A stretch of 64,000 bases of DNA from Moheibacter lacus (GTDB lineage Bacteria; Bacteroidota; Bacteroidia; Flavobacteriales; Weeksellaceae): the NCBI RefSeq assembly GCF_014042165.1, contig NZ_JACDZE010000001.1, forward strand, positions 518,595 to 582,594. The letters run 5' to 3'. How positions within the stretch are numbered: position 1 is the stretch's first letter; every line of letters starts with the position of its first letter. The translations under genes were made by a program, and so were the position numbers. The notes beneath the pieces were generated by a model. It worked only from the letters and a program-made list of their open reading frames with translations. It had not been told where the DNA came from and searched no databases. Shown here piece by piece: positions 1 to 55,542 of this stretch.

Positions 1-17
1 GAGTCCTGTTCCCGCTA
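1..17 (+). tRNA. 3' end of a tRNA gene, probably tRNA-Met, cut by the window edge
   Basis: The first bases read as the end of a T-loop (GAGT), the 3' strand of a T-stem (CCTGT), an acceptor 3' strand (TCCCGCT) and discriminator A. No CCA is encoded; CTA follows. Met identity is inferred from the downstream remnants, which share this 3' end and still carry a CAT anticodon. The 5' part lies outside the window. Confidence 0.75.
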
Positions 18-24
18 CTAAGTA

Positions 25-54
25 GGAGACTTTTGAAAAAAAGTCTCCTTTTTT
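25..54 (+). terminator. rho-independent terminator after the tRNA
   Basis: A perfect 10-bp stem (GGAGACTTTT with AAAAGTCTCC) around a GAAA loop is followed by six T. It lies directly behind the tRNA end and forms the start of the first 118-bp unit. Confidence 0.8.
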
Positions 55-65
55 ATTTCAATTAG

Positions 66-723
66 TACCCGTTTGGATCATATCCGACGTAGCCGACACA
101 GGTTCCCCCGATGCGTCGGGGCTGTTCCCGCTACAAAAGCAAGAGAGTTTAGAAATAGATTCTCTTTTTTTATTTCAATTTGTAGCACGTCGGGCTCATA
201 TCCGCCGCGGCGGACACAGGTTCCCCCGAAGTATCGGGGCTGTTCCCGCTACAAAAGCAAGAGAGTTTAGAAATAGATTCTCTTTTTTTATTTCAATTTG
301 TAGCACGTCAGGCTCATATCCGCCGAGGCGGACACAGTTTCCCCCGAAGTATCGGGGCTGTTCCCGCTACAAAAGCAAGAGAGTTTAGAAATAGATTCTC
401 TTTTTTTATTTCAATTTGTACCACGTCGGGCTCATATCCGCCGCGGCGGACACAGGTTCCCCCGATGCGTCGGGGCTGTTTCCGCTACAAAAGCAAGAGA
501 GTTTAGAAATAGATTCTCTTTTTTTATTTCAATTTGTAGCACGTCAGGCTCATATCCGACGTAGCCGACACAGGTTCCCCCGATGCGTCGGGGCTGTTCC
601 CGCTACAAAAGCAAGAGAGTTTAGAAATAGATTCTCTTTTTTTATTTCAATTTGTAGCACGTCGGGCTCATATCCGCCGAGGCGGACACAGGTTCCCCCG
701 ATGCGTCGGGGCTGTTCCCGCTA
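66..723 (+). pseudogene. Six broken tRNA-Met 3' halves, one per array unit
   Basis: Remnants lie at about 66-133, 184-251, 302-369, 420-487, 538-605 and 656-723. Each keeps the 5' strand of an anticodon stem, a loop with CAT, ACAGG of the T-stem, CTGT, and TCCCGCTA of the acceptor end. The acceptor 5' strand and nearly all of the D-arm are missing. The anticodon-stem 3' strand is replaced by one palindrome and the T-loop by another, so none can fold as a working tRNA. In unit 1 the anticodon stem reads TTTGG before ATCATAT, so that copy may derive from a different CAT tRNA. The match was made by eye. Confidence 0.7.
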
Positions 724-730
724 CAAAAGC

Positions 731-1241
731 ACTATTTGGATAATATTGAATCCGGAACAAAAGGCAGAAGTAACGAAGTAATCATAGCTATTGAGAATAA
801 TGGCATGAGAAACTTATTTTAATCTAAAAAATTCGAACACTTACTGTATTGAATTTAACCCATTCTCCACAAAAAAATGTGACCTTTTAAAATAACCTGT
901 GTCAAAACTGTAGAGTTGTGAATGAATTAAATTTTAGTTAGTACCGACATTTGTTTTTTAATTCTAATTAGAGTCATAAGGCTTTAAATTAGCCCCCATC
1001 TCAGAGAGAGACAAAAGATTCTTAGCATACAACTTCAATAAATGTCAAATTTTTGGCTGTATCCCTGTGGATGCAGCCATTTTATTTTGGACTGATTTAA
1101 AAATCTGTTCAACTCTTCTATTTTTTATTTAACTAATTATCAATTGAGTAAAAAATAAATATGTTAAAAATACACCTTTTTTTGTGACCCGGATATATTA
1201 TCGGTGTCAAAAGAATGAAAGCCAAATAAGCAAGCTTTGGT
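731..1241. other. Gene-free stretch after the tRNA array
   Basis: No convincing gene is visible here. A short frame runs out of the last array unit to a stop at about 822 and reads HYLDNIESGTKGRSNEVI then IAIENNGMRNLF. It has no start of its own and may be the tail of a lost gene. A terminator-like hairpin at 1055-1078 suggests that a short transcript could end there, but I recognise no RNA family. Confidence 0.5.
1055..1085 (+). terminator. Terminator-like hairpin in the gene-free stretch
   Basis: GGCTGTATCC and GGATGCAGCC pair with one G-U wobble around a CTGT loop and are followed by ATTTTATTTT. No gene ends just upstream, so it may end an unannotated RNA. Confidence 0.5.
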
Positions 1242-2015
1242 ATGAAAATAATGATAAATAAAAATCGGTTTCGTTTCGTGAGTAATAGGCAAAATGTTTT
1301 GCCCAATGCTCCGTTCTTCCCAAACGAATATGTAGAAGTAAATTCCCATATTTTAAACGGATTGACCGATGGCTCAAAATCAATTGAAAATTCTATCGAA
1401 TTGCTTCAAAATTTTTATAACTTAGGAATCCGAAATATCCTATGCACTTTCCGTGTTTCAGATGGAGATTTGGATCATCAAACTTCCCGTACGTACGCTT
1501 GGTTTGAAAGTTTAAAAAAATGGGCTAACCAAGATCAACACCTGAAAAACCTCACTCTAAATCTGTCGGCTGTTTATGTCCTGGATGACCGTTTTCCGGA
1601 AATTTCACAAAAAGGAAAACTTCAATCCTACCAAAACAAATGGGTATTTTTGGAACTTCCCCAGTCCGGTTCCCTTTCAGATTGGAAAAAGCTCATCGGC
1701 CAATTACGTCAACAAGGGTATAACCCTATTCTAACTCAAACCGAAAGGAACCGGTGTTTTCATCATGACTTAGCTCAATTTTTTGAGCTAAAGTCAACCG
1801 GTTGTTTCTTTCAAATCGGACTGGATTCTTTCACAAAAGAGGAAGATCTGACCGCAAACACCATTTCTCACTGGCTTTTACGAAACCATTTGGTCGATTT
1901 TATCACTACCGATTTTTATGCTCCTAACCAATTTTATTTTATACCTAACTTAACCCAAACACCTTTTTTTAAAGAATCATTGGATCCAATGATTCGAAAA
2001 ACAAAATTCAACTGA
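1242..2015 (+). CDS. Degenerate CpsB/YwqE-like PHP-family protein, probably not an active phosphatase
   Basis: The 257-residue protein follows the layout of the manganese-dependent tyrosine phosphatases CpsB/YwqE of the PHP fold. The N-terminal DxHxHILPGxDDG motif appears as EVNSHILNGLTDG, the later HPERN motif as TQTERN, and the C-terminal SDAHN motif as TTDFYA. By eye, most metal ligands are gone: first His to Asn, TPH to TFR, the Glu of the GxE motif absent, HPER His to Gln, and the last His to Tyr. The frame is intact and of normal length, so it looks like a maintained pseudoenzyme rather than decay. No capsule genes lie nearby. A second ATG three codons in is an alternative start. Family assignment rests on motif order and spacing. 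Confidence 0.6.
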   Translation: MKIMINKNRFRFVSNRQNVLPNAPFFPNEYVEVNSHILNGLTDGSKSIENSIELLQNFYNLGIRNILCTFRVSDGDLDHQTSRTYAWFESLKKWANQDQHLKNLTLNLSAVYVLDDRFPEISQKGKLQSYQNKWVFLELPQSGSLSDWKKLIGQLRQQGYNPILTQTERNRCFHHDLAQFFELKSTGCFFQIGLDSFTKEEDLTANTISHWLLRNHLVDFITTDFYAPNQFYFIPNLTQTPFFKESLDPMIRKTKFN

Positions 2016-2028
2016 AAGGTTGATCAAA

Positions 2029-2060
2029 AAAGGGAACCAAATCAGGTTCCCTTTATTTTT
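2029..2060. terminator. Bidirectional terminator between convergent genes
   Basis: AAAGGGAACC and GGTTCCCTTT form a perfect stem with a six-base loop, with A-rich sequence before and T-rich sequence after. It can end the PHP-like gene on the plus strand and serS on the minus strand. Confidence 0.85.
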
Positions 2061-2067
2061 TCTATAC

Positions 2068-3339
2068 TCAATTGATTAAATCAAATCCTGTATAATTCCT
2101 TATTTTTTCCGGAATTTTTATACTCCCGTCTGCCTGTTGATGATTTTCCAATATGCACGCCATGATACGCGGTAATGCCAATGCACTTCCATTTAACGTA
2201 TGGCAAAACTCGTTTTTACCTTCATTATTTTTAAATCGCAACTTTAATCGATTGGCTTGAAATGTTTCAAAATTGGAAACTGAACTCACCTCCAACCATT
2301 TTTCTTGTGCCGCAGAAAAAACCTCAAAATCATAGGTCATCGCCGACGCAAATCCGGTGTCACCACCACATAAACGCAAAATTCGATATGGTAATTCCAG
2401 ATCTTCCAATAACCCTTTTACATGATCCACCATCGTTTCCAATGCCGCATAAGAATTTTCCGGCTTTTCAATGCGCACGATTTCTACTTTTTCAAATTGA
2501 TGCAGTCGGTTCAATCCTCGAACATCCTTTCCATAACTTCCGGCTTCGCGACGGAAACAAGGCGAATAAGCCGTGAGCTGTATAGGCAATTGACTTTCGT
2601 TCAATAGTTCATCGCGATAAATATTGGTTACCGGAACTTCAGAAGTTGGAATCAAGTACAAATTATCTTCGTTTACAAAATACATTTGTCCTTCTTTGTC
2701 CGGCAATTGTCCGGTCCCATAACCGGAAGCTTCGTTCACCATAAACGGCGGAATGATTTCCGTATATCCGGCTTCCGTATTTTTATCGAGGAAATATTGG
2801 ATCAAAGCGCGCTGTAACCTCGCTCCTTTTCCTATGTAAACCGGAAATCCCGCGCCGGTAATTTTTACGCCCAATTCAAAGTCTATCAAATTGAATTTTT
2901 TAGCCAATTCCCAGTGAGGAATCGCATCTGTTTTGGGACTTGCATCTCCATTTGTAAAAACGATTTCGTTGTCCTCTGCAGTTACACCAGCCACTACTTT
3001 TTCAGAAGGAACATTTGGGATTTGGTACAACATGGATTTTAAACTCTCTTCGTATTTCACGAGTAAATCCTGTGCTTCTTTGATTTGCGTTTTTTGTTCC
3101 GCCGTTTTTTCTTTTAAAACATTTGCTTCATCGGCTTTTCCTTGTTGAAACAATTGTCCGATTTCCTTCGACAATTTGTTGGATTCTGCTAGTAGGTTAT
3201 CCAGTTCAAATTGGGTTTTACGGCGAAGTTCGTCCATATTTAAAACTTCGTCCACCAATTCCAATTGTTTGAAATTCCTCTTTTTCAGTCCTTCGATGAC
3301 TTTTTCTTTGTTTTCCTGAATAGCAGATACAACTAACAT
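2068..3339 (-). CDS. serS: Seryl-tRNA synthetase
   Basis: This cytoplasmic class II aminoacyl-tRNA synthetase charges tRNA-Ser with serine. The 423-residue length is normal. Residues of roughly 30-105 form the long charged antiparallel coiled-coil arm that grips the tRNA. The catalytic core has class II motif 2 (FRREAGSYGKDVRGL) and motif 3 (GSALALPRIMACILENHQ). The ATG start lies 16 bases below a TAAATTTG box, giving a very short leader. The gene is transcribed alone and is convergent with the PHP-like gene. Confidence 0.97.
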   Translation of the reverse strand: MLVVSAIQENKEKVIEGLKKRNFKQLELVDEVLNMDELRRKTQFELDNLLAESNKLSKEIGQLFQQGKADEANVLKEKTAEQKTQIKEAQDLLVKYEESLKSMLYQIPNVPSEKVVAGVTAEDNEIVFTNGDASPKTDAIPHWELAKKFNLIDFELGVKITGAGFPVYIGKGARLQRALIQYFLDKNTEAGYTEIIPPFMVNEASGYGTGQLPDKEGQMYFVNEDNLYLIPTSEVPVTNIYRDELLNESQLPIQLTAYSPCFRREAGSYGKDVRGLNRLHQFEKVEIVRIEKPENSYAALETMVDHVKGLLEDLELPYRILRLCGGDTGFASAMTYDFEVFSAAQEKWLEVSSVSNFETFQANRLKLRFKNNEGKNEFCHTLNGSALALPRIMACILENHQQADGSIKIPEKIRNYTGFDLIN

Positions 3340-3354
3340 TTCTTTATTTTTTTC

Positions 3355-3362
3355 ACAAATTT
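3355..3362 (-). promoter_or_regulatory. -7 box of serS
   Basis: TAAATTTG on the minus strand matches the Bacteroidota -7 consensus TAnnTTTG. I see no clear -33 TTTG at the usual distance. Confidence 0.5.
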
Positions 3363-3407
3363 AGACATAAGAGATTATATGATAAACATCTGATCTCAGA
3401 ATATTTT

Positions 3408-4118
3408 TTATTTCAAATCCGGTCTTGTGGGACGAACTTCGATTTTGCTCGGTAAAGTTCTCGGATTCATTTTCAAAAGATCCAACACCAATTCCCCGAT
3501 GTCTTCAGGTTGGATTTTCCATTTGTCAGAATCGCTTGGAACATGGTTATTAAAATTGGTAGCGACAGAACCCGGCATGATGGTCGAAACTTTTATATTG
3601 TACTTTCTCAAATCCAACATCGCAGCTTGTGTAAATCCAACAACGCCAAATTTCGTTGCATTGTAACCTGCACCGTTTTCAAAAAAATTGGTTCCTGCCA
3701 AACTCGCCAAAGTGATGTAATAACCTTCAGCCTTTTTCAATTCTTCCACACTCGCTTTTAAAGTATGAAAAACACCTGTTAAGTTGGTGTCAATCATCGC
3801 ATTCCATTCGTCCAAAGACAATTCGTCCACCGGAGCAAAATTCCCCAATCCTGCATTGGCCAAAACCACATCCAATTGACCGAAATGATTTTTGATTTGC
3901 TCTATTGCATTGATTTCGTCCTGAAAGTTGGTCACGTCTGACTGAATGCCTATGATTTTAGACTCATCATCCAAACTCGCTGCTGCTTTCTGTGCGTCTT
4001 CTAACTTTCTTCCACTTATGGCAACACGCATTCCGGCATCTAGCAAAACCTTTGCAGTTCCAAGTCCTATTCCTTTTGTTCCGCCTGTGATATAGGCTAC
4101 TTTATTTTTTAAATTCAT
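3408..4118 (-). CDS. Short-chain dehydrogenase/reductase (SDR)
   Basis: This 236-residue NAD(P)-dependent oxidoreductase has the classical SDR layout. It shows the cofactor-binding motif TGGTKGIG near residue 10, LANAGLG near 88, the catalytic Ser in ITLASLAG, and YNATK near 150. The substrate cannot be told from the sequence. It follows the antiporter gene after 22 bases on the same strand and is probably co-transcribed with it. I infer no shared function. Confidence 0.88.
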   Translation of the reverse strand: MNLKNKVAYITGGTKGIGLGTAKVLLDAGMRVAISGRKLEDAQKAAASLDDESKIIGIQSDVTNFQDEINAIEQIKNHFGQLDVVLANAGLGNFAPVDELSLDEWNAMIDTNLTGVFHTLKASVEELKKAEGYYITLASLAGTNFFENGAGYNATKFGVVGFTQAAMLDLRKYNIKVSTIMPGSVATNFNNHVPSDSDKWKIQPEDIGELVLDLLKMNPRTLPSKIEVRPTRPDLK

Positions 4119-4140
4119 ATTTATTGATTTTTATTGATTT

Positions 4141-5403
4141 TTATTCGATTTCGTCTGTATTGATTTTTTCCGCTTTTTTTTCTTCTTTAACTGAAAACCC
4201 GATGGTTCCGATCATCATCACCAACATCGACCCCAAAATTACGACCAATAAAACTTTTTCGTTGATGGCTTTGCTTTGAAATTGAAATTCAGGAACGGAT
4301 TGTAATTGCCAAAAAAGCAAAATGGTAATCAATCCACGTGGTGAGAAGAAAATCAAAGCTTTGGAATGATTTCTTTCAATTAAAAGCATATAAACCGCAC
4401 GGATCAAAAGAATCGCTCCAACAATGATTCCGCCATTCATAAAATCTTCCACATCATAATAATTTCCAAATGTGATGGAAAAACCAAAGAGCAAAAAGAA
4501 AAATGTACGGACTAGAAAAGTCGATTCTGCGGTGATCAAATGAAATTCGTTTAGGGAATTTCCGGCTCTTAAAAAATGACGGTTGAGCAAAATAAATTTT
4601 GGAAATAATGTTTTGGAATTCCCTAAAAACACACCAAAAATAAATATCGTCACCAGCAGCGGCAAGTGATAGTATTTTCCAACTGCATAAAAAATCATCA
4701 AAATAGAGATGATCAAGAAAAACTTTACTTTATGGTTCAATCTTCCCATGAGTTGGAATAAAACCCAAACCAATAATCCTGAAAAGATGATGATTCCTAT
4801 AATTTTTAAAACCAAAAATCCTAATGAACTTATGCTGACCAATGGTTGATGGCTAGTGAATTGTTCCAAACAATAATTGAAAAACATGATCCCGATTATA
4901 TCTGAAAATGTAGATTCGTAAGTCACAAAATCCTGATCGTTTTTTCCCAATGCCGTGGCGCTTGGTATCGCAACCGAGCTACTGATCACGGAAAGCGGAA
5001 TCGCATTTAAAACTGAAGCTTCCCATCCCATGTCCATATAATTCATAAAAATGGTTGTTAAACCCGCAGTTGTCAACAACAAAAGCATGAAAGCCGATAA
5101 AAAACTTTTATAAATTAAGGTTAATTTTTCTCGGTTTACTTCTAACTCCAATGCTCCTTCCAGAACAATCAATACTAAACCAACAGTCCCCATGAAAGGG
5201 ATGATCTGGTTCAAATATTTGATTTCGTAACCCCAATAATCTGCTGCTGCACGACAAATCACACCTGTCAACATCAACAATATGACTGATGGAAATTTGG
5301 TCTTCCTAGCAAATAAATCAAATAAATAGGAAAAAACGATTAAAACCGAAATCAGTACGATAAGGTATTGGCTGTTGATCATAGGCAACACGATTGAGCA
5401 CAT
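4141..5403 (-). CDS. Cation:proton antiporter, CPA family (Na+/H+ exchanger type)
   Basis: This is an inner-membrane protein of 420 residues with about 11-12 hydrophobic helices and a short charged C-terminal tail. It resembles Na_H_Exchanger (PF00999) proteins, including the N-terminal pair of helices followed by ARKTKFPSVILLMLTGVI. No C-terminal RCK/TrkA domain is present. The likely role is sodium or potassium export against protons for pH and ion balance. A second ATG seven codons in (at 5382, MINSQYL) fits the start of the first helix better and may be the real start. A TATATTTG box lies upstream. Confidence 0.82.
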   Translation of the reverse strand: MCSIVLPMINSQYLIVLISVLIVFSYLFDLFARKTKFPSVILLMLTGVICRAAADYWGYEIKYLNQIIPFMGTVGLVLIVLEGALELEVNREKLTLIYKSFLSAFMLLLLTTAGLTTIFMNYMDMGWEASVLNAIPLSVISSSVAIPSATALGKNDQDFVTYESTFSDIIGIMFFNYCLEQFTSHQPLVSISSLGFLVLKIIGIIIFSGLLVWVLFQLMGRLNHKVKFFLIISILMIFYAVGKYYHLPLLVTIFIFGVFLGNSKTLFPKFILLNRHFLRAGNSLNEFHLITAESTFLVRTFFFLLFGFSITFGNYYDVEDFMNGGIIVGAILLIRAVYMLLIERNHSKALIFFSPRGLITILLFWQLQSVPEFQFQSKAINEKVLLVVILGSMLVMMIGTIGFSVKEEKKAEKINTDEIE

Positions 5404-5422
5404 CAGAAATGCACAGTTAGAA

Positions 5423-5430
5423 CAAATATA
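5423..5430 (-). promoter_or_regulatory. -7 box of the antiporter-SDR unit
   Basis: TATATTTG on the minus strand matches TAnnTTTG and lies 20 bases above the upstream ATG. Confidence 0.5.
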
Positions 5431-5467
5431 TCAATTTAGAAATAATGCTAACCTTGCAAGAATGGCA

Positions 5468-6235
5468 CTAAAAATTTGGTTTTCTTTTCTCCAGAAATGC
5501 CGCTACACCTTCTTTAAAATCTTTTTCGTCAAATAATTCTCCAAAAGCCTTGATTTCAGCATCAAAACCTTTGTCCGTATCACTCAAATTGATGACTTGA
5601 ATCGCTTTTTCAATTGCGGTCGATGAATTGGAAATAATTTTTGAAGCAATGGTTTTGGCTCTTTCGATCAATTCGGATTGAGGAACGACTTCATTGACCA
5701 AACCCATTTCATAAGCGCGATTTGCAGTGATCATTTCTGCCGTAAAAATCATTTGGGCAGCTCTTCCTTTCCCAATCAATTTAGGCAATCTTTGCGTTCC
5801 GCCATATCCCGGAATCAATCCCAAAGTAACCTCCGGAAGTCCCAATTTTGCGTTTTCAGAAGCAATACGAAAATGTGCCGACATCGCCAGTTCCAATCCT
5901 CCTCCTAGCGCAAAACCGTTTATCGCTGCAAGAATGGGTTTAGGGAAATTTTCCACTTTATTGAAAACATCATTTTGACCTTTTGCAGCCAATTGCTCTC
6001 CTTGCTGACCATTGAAATCACTGAATTCTTTGATATCCGCACCGGCAACAAATGATTTCTCTCCACTCCCTGTTAAAATGATGGTTCTGATTGCATCATT
6101 TTCTCTCGCCCCATCCAAAAATTGACTGATATCTTCCAGCAATCCTTTATTGAGCGCATTCAATGATGCAGGTCGATTTAAAGTTACAACCGCTATTTTA
6201 TTTTCTATTTCAACTAATAAATTTTCAAATTCCAT
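5468..6235 (-). CDS. Enoyl-CoA hydratase/isomerase family protein (crotonase)
   Basis: This 255-residue crotonase-fold enzyme acts on acyl-CoA thioesters, most likely hydrating 2-enoyl-CoA in fatty-acid beta-oxidation. The oxyanion-hole segments AGADIKEF and INGFALGGGLELA are present. Both catalytic glutamates of true hydratases are visible, in GGGLELA and in LPEVTLG, so activity is likely. The C-terminal KEGVAAFLEKRKPNF is typical of the family. It stands alone here, not beside thiolase or acyl-CoA dehydrogenase genes. Confidence 0.9.
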   Translation of the reverse strand: MEFENLLVEIENKIAVVTLNRPASLNALNKGLLEDISQFLDGARENDAIRTIILTGSGEKSFVAGADIKEFSDFNGQQGEQLAAKGQNDVFNKVENFPKPILAAINGFALGGGLELAMSAHFRIASENAKLGLPEVTLGLIPGYGGTQRLPKLIGKGRAAQMIFTAEMITANRAYEMGLVNEVVPQSELIERAKTIASKIISNSSTAIEKAIQVINLSDTDKGFDAEIKAFGELFDEKDFKEGVAAFLEKRKPNF

Positions 6236-6336
6236 TTCTCTAATTTGTTGTAAAATAAGCGATATTTTTTAAGAAATCCCATTCTACGTAGAAAAAGCAT
6301 TTTGAAAACAGATTCAAAACATTGACCTGAATTAAC

Positions 6337-6344
6337 TACCTTTG
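6337..6344 (+). promoter_or_regulatory. -7 box of the PF10136-type membrane protein gene
   Basis: TACCTTTG lies 20 bases before the ATG and matches TAnnTTTG. The crotonase gene is divergent, so this intergenic space carries promoters both ways. Confidence 0.55.
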
Positions 6345-6364
6345 CTTTTGAATTTTATCATTCT

Positions 6365-8338
6365 ATGAATTTGGATACAGTCTTTATCTTAGAAAATAAA
6401 TCTGATAAAAAGTTTCTTTCCGGCCTATTTCGGAAGGCAAAAAAAAACTACCCTGACATCATTGCATTCATTGACACACTGACACTTAAGTTAGAGGTAG
6501 ATGACAATTTTCACAACCGATTTTTAACCGAAATTCACGAAGTTTTTCAAGGCGTTCGGTTCATCAAATACCTGACAACTTCAGGTTTGATGCAAGAGAA
6601 TTCTTTCTTTTCCCTCATTCGAACCAAAATCTATGAAGTCATCCTTCCGGAAATCGAAGATGACCAAACGCTGACCTCGATCATCAACGATTTATTTTAC
6701 CAACAATCCAACTTTAAAAATTTCAAACTGATTCCAAAAGATCGTTGGGAAAGATTTTATTCGGCTCTTTTTAGAAAATCAGAAAATGGTGAAATCAATT
6801 CGCTTCGCAAAAATCTCAGAAATCAAATCATCGAATCCATCAATATCTTGATGGACCGAATCAGCGGCGGATTTTCTGACAATGAGATGATGCGGTATCG
6901 TCCTCCCGGAGAATATGGAAAAACACCGTTTTATAAATTGTCCATCGACATCCGGAACATCATCGAAAATCCGGACAATCCTTTCGACATGTTGGAAATA
7001 CGCCAATCCATCAAAAGTTGCAGCATTTACTCCAACGATATTTTGACCCAAAAGGACAACAAAGGAATTTCCCTGAAAGTCACGGTAAAAATCAACCGGA
7101 TCATTCAAGAATTGCAACGACTTCAGGAAATTGTAAAAAATTTAAATGATTTAAAAGGAGATGCCTCAATCGTTACTTTTTTCTCCAATGCATCCAAAAT
7201 GTGGGCAGAATACTATTCGCCTCGAAATTGGCTTTCCAAACAGGTTTCCGCTACGGTTTACTTGGTCACCTTTTTAGCGACTTATCACAACGGGAGAACA
7301 GGTGAGAAATACATAACCACAACTGCGAAAGAATACATTCGATTATTTTTAACGGCATGTGGAGGCGGTTTGATCGTTGCGGTTTGTTGTTACGTCAAAC
7401 TTTGGGCAGGCCATATCGACAATATGTCACCATTTTCAAAGGCATTTCTATTTAGTGTGAATTATGCAATAGGATTTTCGGCAATCTATCTTTTTCATAT
7501 GACGCTTGCGACCAAACAGCCTGCCATGACGGCTTCCTTGATTGCACATACTTTAAAAAACGATGACAACAGCAAAGACATCAATTACTCCGAATTTTCA
7601 AGATTATTTGCCCGACTCAGCCGAAGTCAATTCATTGCATTTCAGGGAAATGTCATCGCCAGCTTTGTACTTTGTACTTTGATTTTTTGGTTGTTCCGAT
7701 ATGTTTTTGGATGGAAAGTGATGAGCGTCAGCGAATCCTTAAAATACTGGGACGAAATGGCTTACATGGATCCCAAAATATTTTGGTTTGCTTCTATCGC
7801 AGGATTTTTTCTATTTGTTTCCGGATTAATTTCTGGACTGGTGATCAATAATCAACGCTATAACAACACACCAAATCGGGTTTACCATCATCCATTTTTA
7901 AAGAAATTTCTTCAGGAAAGTAAAAGAAAAAAGTTCGCATCATGGTTTGAAAAAAATTATGGGGGGCTGATTGGAAACGTCGTTTTTGGTTTCATGATGG
8001 GATCTGCATTTTTAGTAGGTGATTTTTTAGACATCCACTTTGACATCCGTCACATCACTTTTGCAGCAGGAAATTTGGCGATGGGAATGGCGGGTATCGA
8101 CTATGGTGGCATCACTTACCTTACGATTTTTACGGCAATTGCTTCCGTTTTTTTAATCGGAAGTTTCAATTTTTTTGTAAGCTTCTTGCTGTCATTGGTT
8201 TTGGCAATGCGTTCCAATTCCATTCCGATTCACAATATTTTCTACATGTTTTGGGCGGTTTTCAAAGAATTTTTGAAAAATCCTTATAAATTTTTCTTTC
8301 CTCCCTTATTTAGCAAAAAGAAGAAAATCATTTCTTAA
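6365..8338 (+). CDS. Large membrane protein of the 'site-specific recombinase' family (PF10136-like)
   Basis: This 657-residue protein resembles proteins labelled site-specific recombinase (gonococcal Gcr type, PF10136). The first 300 or so residues are soluble and helical, with the segment DRWERFYSALF. From about residue 315 on there are roughly seven membrane helices, ending in a basic KKKKII tail. The motif YNNTPNRVYHHPFL between helices is typical of the family. No tyrosine or serine recombinase catalytic motif is visible, and many membrane segments make a recombinase role doubtful. The name is inherited from annotation; the true function is unknown. It has its own promoter box. Confidence 0.7.
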   Translation: MNLDTVFILENKSDKKFLSGLFRKAKKNYPDIIAFIDTLTLKLEVDDNFHNRFLTEIHEVFQGVRFIKYLTTSGLMQENSFFSLIRTKIYEVILPEIEDDQTLTSIINDLFYQQSNFKNFKLIPKDRWERFYSALFRKSENGEINSLRKNLRNQIIESINILMDRISGGFSDNEMMRYRPPGEYGKTPFYKLSIDIRNIIENPDNPFDMLEIRQSIKSCSIYSNDILTQKDNKGISLKVTVKINRIIQELQRLQEIVKNLNDLKGDASIVTFFSNASKMWAEYYSPRNWLSKQVSATVYLVTFLATYHNGRTGEKYITTTAKEYIRLFLTACGGGLIVAVCCYVKLWAGHIDNMSPFSKAFLFSVNYAIGFSAIYLFHMTLATKQPAMTASLIAHTLKNDDNSKDINYSEFSRLFARLSRSQFIAFQGNVIASFVLCTLIFWLFRYVFGWKVMSVSESLKYWDEMAYMDPKIFWFASIAGFFLFVSGLISGLVINNQRYNNTPNRVYHHPFLKKFLQESKRKKFASWFEKNYGGLIGNVVFGFMMGSAFLVGDFLDIHFDIRHITFAAGNLAMGMAGIDYGGITYLTIFTAIASVFLIGSFNFFVSFLLSLVLAMRSNSIPIHNIFYMFWAVFKEFLKNPYKFFFPPLFSKKKKIIS

Positions 8339-8365
8339 ATTTTCTATTCCAACTCAAAAAAATAA

Positions 8366-8408
8366 TTTGGAAATCAATTTATTTTACATTTACTTTGTAC
8401 TTCAAAGT
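8366..8408 (+). promoter_or_regulatory. Promoter with embedded palindromic operator, site 1 of 3
   Basis: TTTG at 8366 and tTACTTTG at 8390 stand about 20 bases apart, as in Bacteroidota promoters. ACTTTG (8392) and CAAAGT (8403) are inverted arms of a 17-bp palindrome ACTTTGtacTTCAAAGT that overlaps the -7 box. A bound repressor would block it. The same palindrome recurs at 9724 and 10596. Confidence 0.7.
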
Positions 8409-8415
8409 TCTTTAT

Positions 8416-9090
8416 ATGAATTCAAATCCTCAAGATCAACTCAAAGAAATTCGCTCATTGATGGAGCGCAGCACCAGGTTTATGTCTTTAAGTGGCTGGA
8501 CGGGAATTATGGCTGGAATATATTCGCTCATCGGTGCTGTTGCTGCTTATTTTGTGATTTTTAAAATGAATTTCATTTCGACAATTTCTACAACAGAAAT
8601 TGAAACCTACGGTTCCGGCCGCCCGATTCATTATAATTATTCGAATGGATTATTTGAATTGGCTTCAGATAAAAATCTTTTGCTTTTTTTGATCGCATTT
8701 GCTGTGATTTTCCTTTCTGCAACGACCGCATTTTACCAATCTTCCGTTCAAGCCAAAAAACAAGGTGTTAAACTTTGGAACTCCACTACGAAACGATTAT
8801 TTGTTCAAGTTGCCATTCCGTTGGTGACAGGAGGACTGTTCTGCTTTGCTTTGCTGTATTACGGAAATGCAGGACTGATTGCACCTGCGATGTTGATTTT
8901 CTACGGACTTGCTTTATTAAATGGAAGCAAATACACCTTAAAAGAATTTCATTCGTTGGCGCTGTGCGAAATTGCTTTAGGATTAATTTCCTTGTTTTTC
9001 ATCGGATACGGTTTGTATTTTTGGGCGATGGGATTTGGAATATTGCATATCATTTACGGCATTTTGATGCATAAAAGATACAACAGATGA
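8416..9090 (+). CDS. Integral membrane protein cotranscribed with a winged-helix regulator
   Basis: The 224-residue product has a soluble N-terminus (MNSNPQDQLKEIRSLMERS) and about five or six membrane helices. No catalytic motif is visible and the function is unknown. The start is ATG at 8416 just after the operator; a frame extension upstream would run into the promoter. Its stop overlaps the start of the regulator gene by 4 bases (ATGA), so the two are translationally coupled. Such pairs of membrane protein and small winged-helix protein are, as far as I know, common in Flavobacteriia. Confidence 0.75.
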   Translation: MNSNPQDQLKEIRSLMERSTRFMSLSGWTGIMAGIYSLIGAVAAYFVIFKMNFISTISTTEIETYGSGRPIHYNYSNGLFELASDKNLLLFLIAFAVIFLSATTAFYQSSVQAKKQGVKLWNSTTKRLFVQVAIPLVTGGLFCFALLYYGNAGLIAPAMLIFYGLALLNGSKYTLKEFHSLALCEIALGLISLFFIGYGLYFWAMGFGILHIIYGILMHKRYNR

Positions 9091-55497: not shown

Positions 55498-55542
55498 CCA
55501 CAAAGGTCACATCCGCCGCGGCGGACACTAAGTGCACAAAGG
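55498..55542. repeat. CACAAAG repeat split by the TCCGCCGCGGCGGA palindrome
   Basis: CCACAAAGGTCAC and TAAGTGCACAAAGG are parts of a CACAAAG repeat. The palindrome at 55512-55525 with flanks A..CAC is identical to the one in the tRNA array (201-214). Confidence 0.7.

Follow-up and report, generated by a model that had tools for sequence, protein, structure and literature searches.

A tandem array of palindrome-bearing initiator tRNA pieces in Moheibacter lacus and its possible link to tRNA-anchored GIY-YIG genes

The array beside the initiator tRNA gene

The window, meaning the whole 64,000-nucleotide stretch of Moheibacter lacus DNA that was analyzed (G000:C1:518595-582594), starts one base past a single N (C1:518594) in a 1.76-Mb contig. 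It opens with a tandem array, which TRF placed at window 6-731 (period 118, 6.2 copies, 92% matches, score 1193). With the unit borders set at the tRNA acceptor end CGCTAC, the array resolves into six units at window 19-724, one of 116 bp and five of exactly 118 bp. A sequence-only reading of this DNA had described six units with an exact 118-bp period; the number of units stands, and the exact period holds for all except unit 1. In every unit, a terminator-like hairpin with a T run, which that reading had rightly noted, is followed by a piece of tRNA-fMet reaching from the 3' side of the D-loop through the acceptor end. The features are as follows.

1-18, plus strand: last 18 nt of tRNA-fMet, from the T-loop to the acceptor end; contig start after the N
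19-134, plus strand: unit 1, 116 bp, a variant with another, native-type terminator (hairpin 24-49) and a tRNA-fMet piece
83-96, plus strand: P1 position of unit 1, TCCGACGTAGCCGA, a poor palindrome
106-121, plus strand: P2 hairpin of unit 1, CCCCGA-TGCG-TCGGGG, in place of T-loop nucleotides after GTTC
135-252, plus strand: unit 2, 118 bp, with terminator hairpin at about 141-166, T run to about 171, then a tRNA-fMet piece
201-214, plus strand: P1 palindrome of unit 2, TCCGCCGCGGCGGA
224-239, plus strand: P2 hairpin of unit 2, CCCCGA-AGTA-TCGGGG
253-370, plus strand: unit 3, 118 bp
319-332, plus strand: P1 palindrome of unit 3, TCCGCCGAGGCGGA
342-357, plus strand: P2 hairpin of unit 3
371-488, plus strand: unit 4, 118 bp
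437-450, plus strand: P1 palindrome of unit 4, TCCGCCGCGGCGGA
460-475, plus strand: P2 hairpin of unit 4
489-606, plus strand: unit 5, 118 bp
555-568, plus strand: P1 position of unit 5, TCCGACGTAGCCGA, a poor palindrome
578-593, plus strand: P2 hairpin of unit 5
607-724, plus strand: unit 6 (the last), 118 bp, with unit-like sequence on to 731
673-686, plus strand: P1 palindrome of unit 6, TCCGCCGAGGCGGA
696-711, plus strand: P2 hairpin of unit 6

P1 is a 14-nt segment that follows CTCATA and replaces the 3' strand of the anticodon stem and part of the variable region, with CAT kept. It has the form TCCGCC-NN-GGCGGA, a good palindrome, in units 2, 3, 4, and 6 and is poor in units 1 and 5. P2 is a 16-nt hairpin, CCCCGA-NNNN-TCGGGG, which replaces five T-loop nucleotides right after GGTTC (GTTTC in unit 3). 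The units had been taken for halves of tRNA-Met; they do keep CAT and the acceptor end, but they are not plain halves, since P1 and P2 interrupt them.

The intact initiator tRNA-fMet gene lies upstream of the window (C1:518212-518285), and BLAST finds pieces of it again in the units, which upholds the proposed tRNA-Met origin. Two units and part of a third lie between this gene and the N. Because window 1-18 equals the end of the intact tRNA-fMet, a gap in the assembly is the most likely cause of the N, and the count of units is provisional; the 18 nt are probably a contig-end overlap with the end of that gene. The earlier statement that the units follow an intact tRNA 3' end thus applies to the gene outside the window, whereas the window itself holds only these 18 nt after the N.

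The five 118-bp units differ pairwise at only 3 to 8 of 118 positions, in line with the amplification suggested before. Their bases 1-50, which include the terminator, are invariant, and all 11 variable positions fall at 51-111, in the tRNA-derived part. Among units 2, 3, 4, and 6, two P1 palindromes and two P2 loops occur in all four combinations. Such reassortment suggests that units have exchanged sequence, or that the same mutations arose repeatedly. A plain pseudogene array, in which the 3' end of the tRNA was duplicated downstream by chance, was amplified by slippage, and is now decaying, would be tandem, nearly identical, and noncoding and would have no promoter-like box inside, as is the case here. 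That the P1 and P2 variants reassort while the first 50 bases are identical in five units argues against it, and further evidence on this point is given below.

ARAGORN found no tRNA, and no complete cloverleaf, in window 1-731. In an Rfam search of window 1-3000 at E values up to 1, the array had no match, tRNA included, and two chance-level matches fell outside it. The Bacteroidota-type -7 box has the form TAnnTTTG. It is absent from both strands of window 1-760, and one stands directly before the intact tRNA-fMet. RNA from the units would therefore require read-through past the terminators. These results bear on the idea that the array encodes small RNAs, one per terminator, acting as hairpin-bearing tRNA mimics in the manner of decoys or sponges. 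The units do fold into stable hairpins, one of which is intrinsic-terminator-like; however, the units have no promoter-like box, the terminators between them would starve the distal units, and the array has no Rfam match even at E values up to 1, so that we regard a small-RNA array as quite improbable. A 36-aa mechanical ORF on the minus strand (window 78-660) is repeated in five units and shows no sign of being a gene.

Partial tRNA and 5S rRNA copies elsewhere in the genome

Of the 35 tRNA matches in the genome, 30 loci were examined, and partial downstream copies that are not neighboring tRNAs were found at 8 of them, whereas the few upstream matches were neighboring tRNAs. This one-sided distribution is a second point against a chance pseudogene array. 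The affected tRNAs are fMet, elongator Met, Asp, Phe, Gly(tcc), Arg(tcg), Val(tac), and Arg(tct). At the Asp, Phe, and elongator Met loci, the copies alternate with small GIY-YIG ORFs, and hairpin-bearing tRNA 3' pieces lie between the units. There are four ORF units after tRNA-Asp and two after tRNA-Phe, the second truncated; two also follow the elongator tRNA-Met, the first without the usual start codon and only the second in the ORF list. None of the 12 GIY-YIG matches of the genome falls in the window, and therefore the array can be no more than an ORF-less relative of a nuclease element. The sequence-only reading had described the array; the hairpins inside its units, the copies at other tRNAs, and the connection with GIY-YIG genes had escaped it.

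In five of the eight affected tRNAs (fMet, elongator Met, Phe, Gly, and Arg(tcg)), a palindrome replaces the bases after GTTC; the tRNA-Asp copies retain GTTCGAGTC and have their palindromes elsewhere. The P2-stem pattern YCCCCGANNNNTCGGGG matched 12 times in the genome, always in partial tRNA copies (8 in the fMet array, 2 after tRNA-Gly, and 1 each after tRNA-Phe and tRNA-Arg(tcg)), while the reversed-pattern control gave 0 matches. The elongator tRNA-Met copy carries a P2 variant with the stem CTCCGA. The P2 after tRNA-Gly, with the loop CGCA, is exactly reverse complementary to the fMet P2 that has the loop TGCG. When the T-loop palindrome was searched in relatives, 1 of 59 genomes had it, namely, M. 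lacus itself. The P1 pattern TCCGCCNNGGCGGA occurs at 14 places in the genome, 5 of them in tRNA copies, 2 in partial 5S rRNA copies (pseudo-5S copies), and 7 elsewhere. One of these seven lies within the window at 55512-55525, where TCCGCCGCGGCGGA is flanked by CACAAAGGTCACA and CACTAAGTG.

There are three pseudo-5S copies in the genome, one on contig C9 (about 116073-116191) and two on C6 (about 278533-278651 and another about 300 bp away). They are on the reverse strand at both the C9 (L244) and C6 (L245) loci and are followed by a 5S-type terminator. In each, three palindromes stand in place of helices, one of them P1 or a P1 variant, and the stretches between palindromes (about 18 to 20 nt) are identical or nearly identical to 5S rRNA. 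The P2 stem is also present in all three, where it follows A; YCCCCGANNNNTCGGGG needs C or T before the stem and therefore leaves these copies out. In one copy, P1 is changed in both arms together (CCCGCC..GGCGGG), with pairing kept. Ahead of the C9 copy there are an intact 5S gene, a single N, and a second, identical 5S gene. None of the 12 GIY-YIG matches of the genome lies on C6 or C9, and the pseudo-5S palindrome pattern was found in 1 of 199 genomes searched, again M. lacus itself.

Since the pseudo-5S copies carry palindromes, the underlying process is not confined to tRNA genes, which somewhat favors a different reading, namely, that the palindromes are REP-like mobile units with a preference for hairpin-rich copies of stable-RNA genes, that the GIY-YIG protein mobilizes them in a RAYT-like manner, and that the tRNA copies are mere landing sites. 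As regards REP-style dispersal, 7 of the 14 P1 places are in neither tRNA nor pseudo-5S copies, and for P2 0 of 12 YCCCCGANNNNTCGGGG matches are outside RNA-gene copies. A REP-like origin would fit the occurrence of the P2 stem in both tRNA and pseudo-5S copies, the Gly P2 that looks like an insertion of the fMet P2 in opposite orientation, and the pseudo-5S P1 whose arms changed together. It would also fit the recurrence of a YCCCGA..TCGGGR-like stem across many taxa in the loci described below. On the other hand, all 12 YCCCCGANNNNTCGGGG matches, in a pattern limited to C or T before the stem, are in tRNA copies, and in the copies examined the palindromes take the place of tRNA sequence rather than merely adding to it. 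Moreover, members of one nuclease lineage from several taxa have the palindrome at the same tRNA position, which would be unexpected from loose insertion. Overall, we rate the REP-like reading as rather unlikely.

Two of the eight affected loci, Val (L007 1576-1960) and Arg(tct) (L012 reverse strand 1510-1300), have ORF-less copies of different build. By eye, an inverted repeat that pairs the terminator with the sequence ahead of the tRNA piece spans each of these units.

GIY-YIG genes next to tRNAs in other genomes

The PF01541 GIY-YIG domain was detected in five of five proteins (E values 2e-11 to 2e-17), and the catalytic-type residues Y7, Y18, G20, R28, H32, and E64 are kept in 94 to 96 of 96 aligned rows. 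For the ORFs, NCBIfam gave two subthreshold matches and PHROGs none. Among proteins of solved structure, those closest in sequence are UPF0213 proteins and Slx1 (1zg2, 1ywl, and 7wme). A complete element consists of a stand-alone GIY-YIG domain gene of about 80 to 100 codons directly after (in a mirror class, before) an intact tRNA and, on the far side of the ORF, a partial copy of the tRNA in which a palindrome replaces the anticodon arm, the variable loop, the T-loop, or a neighboring stretch.

Profile A1, built from four M. lacus proteins, retrieved 175 proteins in named genomes, and the best 80 of 175 were kept. These are mostly from Bacteroidota, with some from Ignavibacteriota, Neomarinimicrobiota, Dojkabacteria, Moranbacteria, and Portnoybacteria and one from a Verrucomicrobia bin. 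An intact same-strand tRNA was found near the ORF in 61 of the 80 loci (up to 500 bp upstream in 44 and up to 120 bp downstream in 17); since the queries were themselves tRNA-linked, this fraction describes the tRNA-linked family and not GIY-YIG genes at large. In 7 of the remaining 19 loci, a tRNA lies farther away or at a contig edge; it is at 520 and 744 bp in two of these and was located via Rfam in the other five. The last 12 of the 19 all have tRNA-like pieces, one of which (L116, a 14-nt match) is too short to count; the tRNA library for these 12 was built from the loci themselves, and with unlinked GIY-YIG loci it gave 13-nt matches in 4 of 11 and none in 7 of 11. When the same tRNA test was applied to 25 loci from M. 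lacus and same-order relatives, 8 passed, and 11 of the other 17 are of the unlinked type.

Of 57 loci in which the tRNA precedes the ORF, 51 have a piece of that tRNA again on the far side of the ORF, and in the mirror class the 5' part of the tRNA is repeated ahead of the ORF in 16 of 17. The mirror-class tRNAs are Pro(ggg) in ten cases, Ser in three, Asp of Dojkabacteria in two, and Asn and Ala in one each. A GC-rich nonterminator hairpin with a stem of at least 7 was present in 48 of 61 copy regions, and the control for this count gave 15 of 823 windows. With the threshold relaxed to a stem of at least 6, and counted without a control, a hairpin abuts a tRNA piece in 53 of 61. In many copies, the whole anticodon arm is replaced. 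The palindrome sits at 45|51 in five tRNA-Asn copies with both sides resolved, at 28|46 in three tRNA-Val copies, and at 27-28|45-46 in all but one of five tRNA-Pro(ggg) copies, the exception having 25|45. There is not one place per isotype, however: other tRNA-Asn copies have 14|18, 25|36, and 58|64, and tRNA-Asp copies have 38|51 or 50|59.

Of the rows counted as linked, 96 of 96 have Trp46, against 0 of 13 unlinked rows, and the figures for Ser11 are 94 of 95 and 3 of 13, where linked means every row outside the list of 13 and thus includes L086, with tRNAs on the other strand, and the 19 loci without a close called tRNA. In a tree of 109 proteins, two changes split the linked rows from the 13 unlinked ones (12.4 when shuffled). 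In a tree of 76 tRNA-linked proteins, which is based on 87 columns and has bootstraps that are not settled, isotype labels changed 25 times, against a shuffled mean of 56.5 with 0 of 200 shuffles as low. A starred branch sets off each of three groups, namely, Asp with the tRNA upstream, Pro(ggg), and fMet; members of this Asp group come from Crocinitomicaceae, Saprospiraceae, Flavobacteriaceae, and Weeksellaceae. Other labels are intermixed (Val 6 changes, Arg 4, Phe 3, and Pro(tgg) 3). The isotype structure is thus partial.

The tRNA-linked GIY-YIG ORF is under purifying selection: a ratio could be defined for 12 of 16 pairs, and these gave a dN/dS of 0.06 to 0.34. Two of the pairs have a dS of >1, and another rests on two substitutions. 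The four Asp copies of M. lacus gave 0.14 to 0.34 and the other genomes 0.06 to 0.23 in 6 of 10 pairs, with dS saturated in 4.

A search of 320 genomes of the family gave the exact fMet junction, GCTCATATCCGCC-N(0-5)-GGCGGAC, in 5, which belong to four genera (control, 0). In the four junction genomes other than M. lacus, for each of which one locus was read, a tRNA-Met(CAT) precedes the junction. In three of them (G013, G034, and G288), the junction CTCATA|TCCGCC..GGCGGA|C stands beside GIY-YIG ORFs, which lie between the tRNA and the copies and of which several are shortened or broken; of the four units in G034, three have an internal stop. At the G280 junction locus, a simple ORF pattern revealed no GIY-YIG ORF, and in a further genome (G014) a variant fMet junction adjoins such an ORF. 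With the same tRNA, the same junction, and an ORF that is present or decaying, the fMet junction ties the window array to the nuclease element better than any other single finding. It is also a third argument against the plain pseudogene array, which we consider improbable. In the fMet arrays of G034 (L248) and G013 (L247), which are possible stages toward an ORF-less array, the GIY-YIG ORFs are shortened or broken and a second whole tRNA-fMet is present.

Within the genus, occupancy is patchy. At the fMet locus, G001, G002, G003, and G004 have no copy and G005 has a decayed remnant, as judged by eye; BLAST of the units in these five relatives matched only the intact fMet gene and did not detect the G005 remnant. 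This distribution, together with the recurrence of the P1 junction at the fMet genes of other genera beside a nuclease ORF, gives no support to the earlier suggestion that the array could be the decay of a former multicopy tRNA locus. By eye, the tRNA-Asp locus is occupied in G003, has a remnant in G001, and looks empty in G002 and G005. The elongator tRNA-Met locus in G003 looks empty.

At tRNA-Asp of G004 there is no such element. Instead, a copy of the tRNA-Asp 3' end with its terminator lies about 13.4 kb from the gene. On the same contig (C7; L213 and L215), an ORF that looks by eye like a tyrosine recombinase begins shortly after tRNA-Asp, and the two features are probably those of an integrative element on the same tRNA end. 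tRNA 3' ends are classical integration sites, and the G004 copy is as expected of such an island, so att-site scars left by integrative elements were considered as the origin of the array as well. The 116- to 118-bp units, however, contain a terminator and internal hairpins; none of the ten ORFs of at least 100 aa in window 1-9000 looks by eye like a recombinase; and the mirror class duplicates the 5' part of the tRNA. An origin as att scars is hence highly improbable. Simple decay, att scars, and an RNA-only function were all rejected on the evidence given for each.

Known systems and a proposed origin

The closest likeness is to SegB of phages T4 and T6, a free-standing homing endonuclease whose GIY-YIG gene stands beside tRNA genes. 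T6 SegB cuts in tRNA genes at the preferred motif RAWTSGAAC and is required for tandem amplification of segB-tRNA segments (PMC13096335). By our own derivation, the reverse complement of this motif is GTTCSAWTY, which fits tRNA T-loops; the nucleotides that P2 takes the place of are exactly those following GTTC. Both systems combine a GIY-YIG gene beside tRNA genes with tandem amplification of tRNA and nuclease segments, and breakage inside tRNA genes, as by SegB, would be a further shared trait. In contrast to SegB, the genes are chromosomal, the ORF comprises only the catalytic domain, and partial tRNA copies with palindromes are present. Furthermore, the lineages partly track the tRNA isotype, whereas the SegB paper reports no evident isotype preference (PMC13096335).

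UPF0213 and other small GIY-YIG (URI-type) proteins and Slx1 share the domain, and its catalytic-type residues are conserved here. They differ from the linked proteins, which have Trp46 (absent in the unlinked ones) and whose genes keep a close same-strand position to a tRNA. REP/BIME sequences with RAYT resemble the element in pairing short palindromes with a small nuclease-type gene and in having ORF-less copies (PMC3733652). They differ in that RAYT is a Y1 transposase and not a GIY-YIG protein and in that the palindromes here occupy recurrent places in RNA-gene copies.

Of the features that mark homing endonucleases, we found the catalytic domain with conserved residues and the position of the gene beside a conserved gene, the tRNA, which is the putative target. 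With respect to possible horizontal spread, what is observed comprises occupied, remnant, and empty alleles in one genus, the fMet type in 5 of 320 genomes, an Asp clade in four families, and no relatives in phages or plasmids. We lean toward the view that the array derives from a tRNA-anchored, homing-like GIY-YIG nuclease element and is a form of it that lacks the ORF and has been amplified in tandem. In the mechanism we propose, the nuclease would break a tRNA gene, and recombinational repair would insert the ORF and duplicate part of the tRNA, in the common class together with the terminator. As part of the tRNA would be duplicated during repair, the host would keep one working tRNA. The palindromes would disarm the copy, such that it could be neither cut again nor converted back and would yield no tRNA. 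Recombination between copies would then expand or shrink the array, and the fMet units in the M. lacus lineage would have lost the ORF.

Several observations do not sit easily with a derivation from the nuclease element. The intact tRNA in the same cell stays uncut, which a block of recutting by hairpins does not by itself explain; it is possible that this tRNA is spared by weak activity on the occupied allele or by a target that spans the flank. As many copies, for example those of tRNA-Asp, keep GTTCGAGTC, the T-loop cannot be the target everywhere. The array has no GIY-YIG ORF, the isotype structure is incomplete, and the hairpin places in tRNA-Asn differ between lineages. Three pseudo-5S copies have the same kind of palindromes on contigs with no GIY-YIG gene. 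Finally, searches with one protein or one profile found no GIY-YIG relatives among 50,697 phage records, 72,556 plasmid records, and viral contigs.

More tentatively, and as a conjecture that is plausible rather than probable, the tRNA-linked genes could represent a distinct chromosomal module, selfish or host-serving, in Bacteroidota, Ignavibacteriota, and candidate-phyla bacteria. It would consist of a mini GIY-YIG nuclease, lineage-specialized by tRNA isotype, that adjoins a tRNA and a partial copy with a palindrome in place of one stem-loop, and the palindrome would mark the site of the nuclease. The gene could be shed while tandem hairpin-tRNA arrays persist, possibly including those of 5S rRNA. 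GIY-YIG genes beside hairpin-broken tRNA copies were not described in the open-access literature, among the matches listed (titles and starts of abstracts). If the proposal is true, it would link homing endonucleases, REP-like palindromes, and tRNA pseudogenes at genes that are among the most conserved DNA of a cell, and it would explain odd tRNA fragments in many genomes. Moreover, the position of the palindrome in each copy would predict the cut site of that nuclease lineage.

Apart from the tRNA-linked genes, the M. lacus genome has an unlinked GIY-YIG gene (L068; G000:C1:857900-858900), which is located within a long REP-like array of CTCGACTACCGCTCGA-type repeats.
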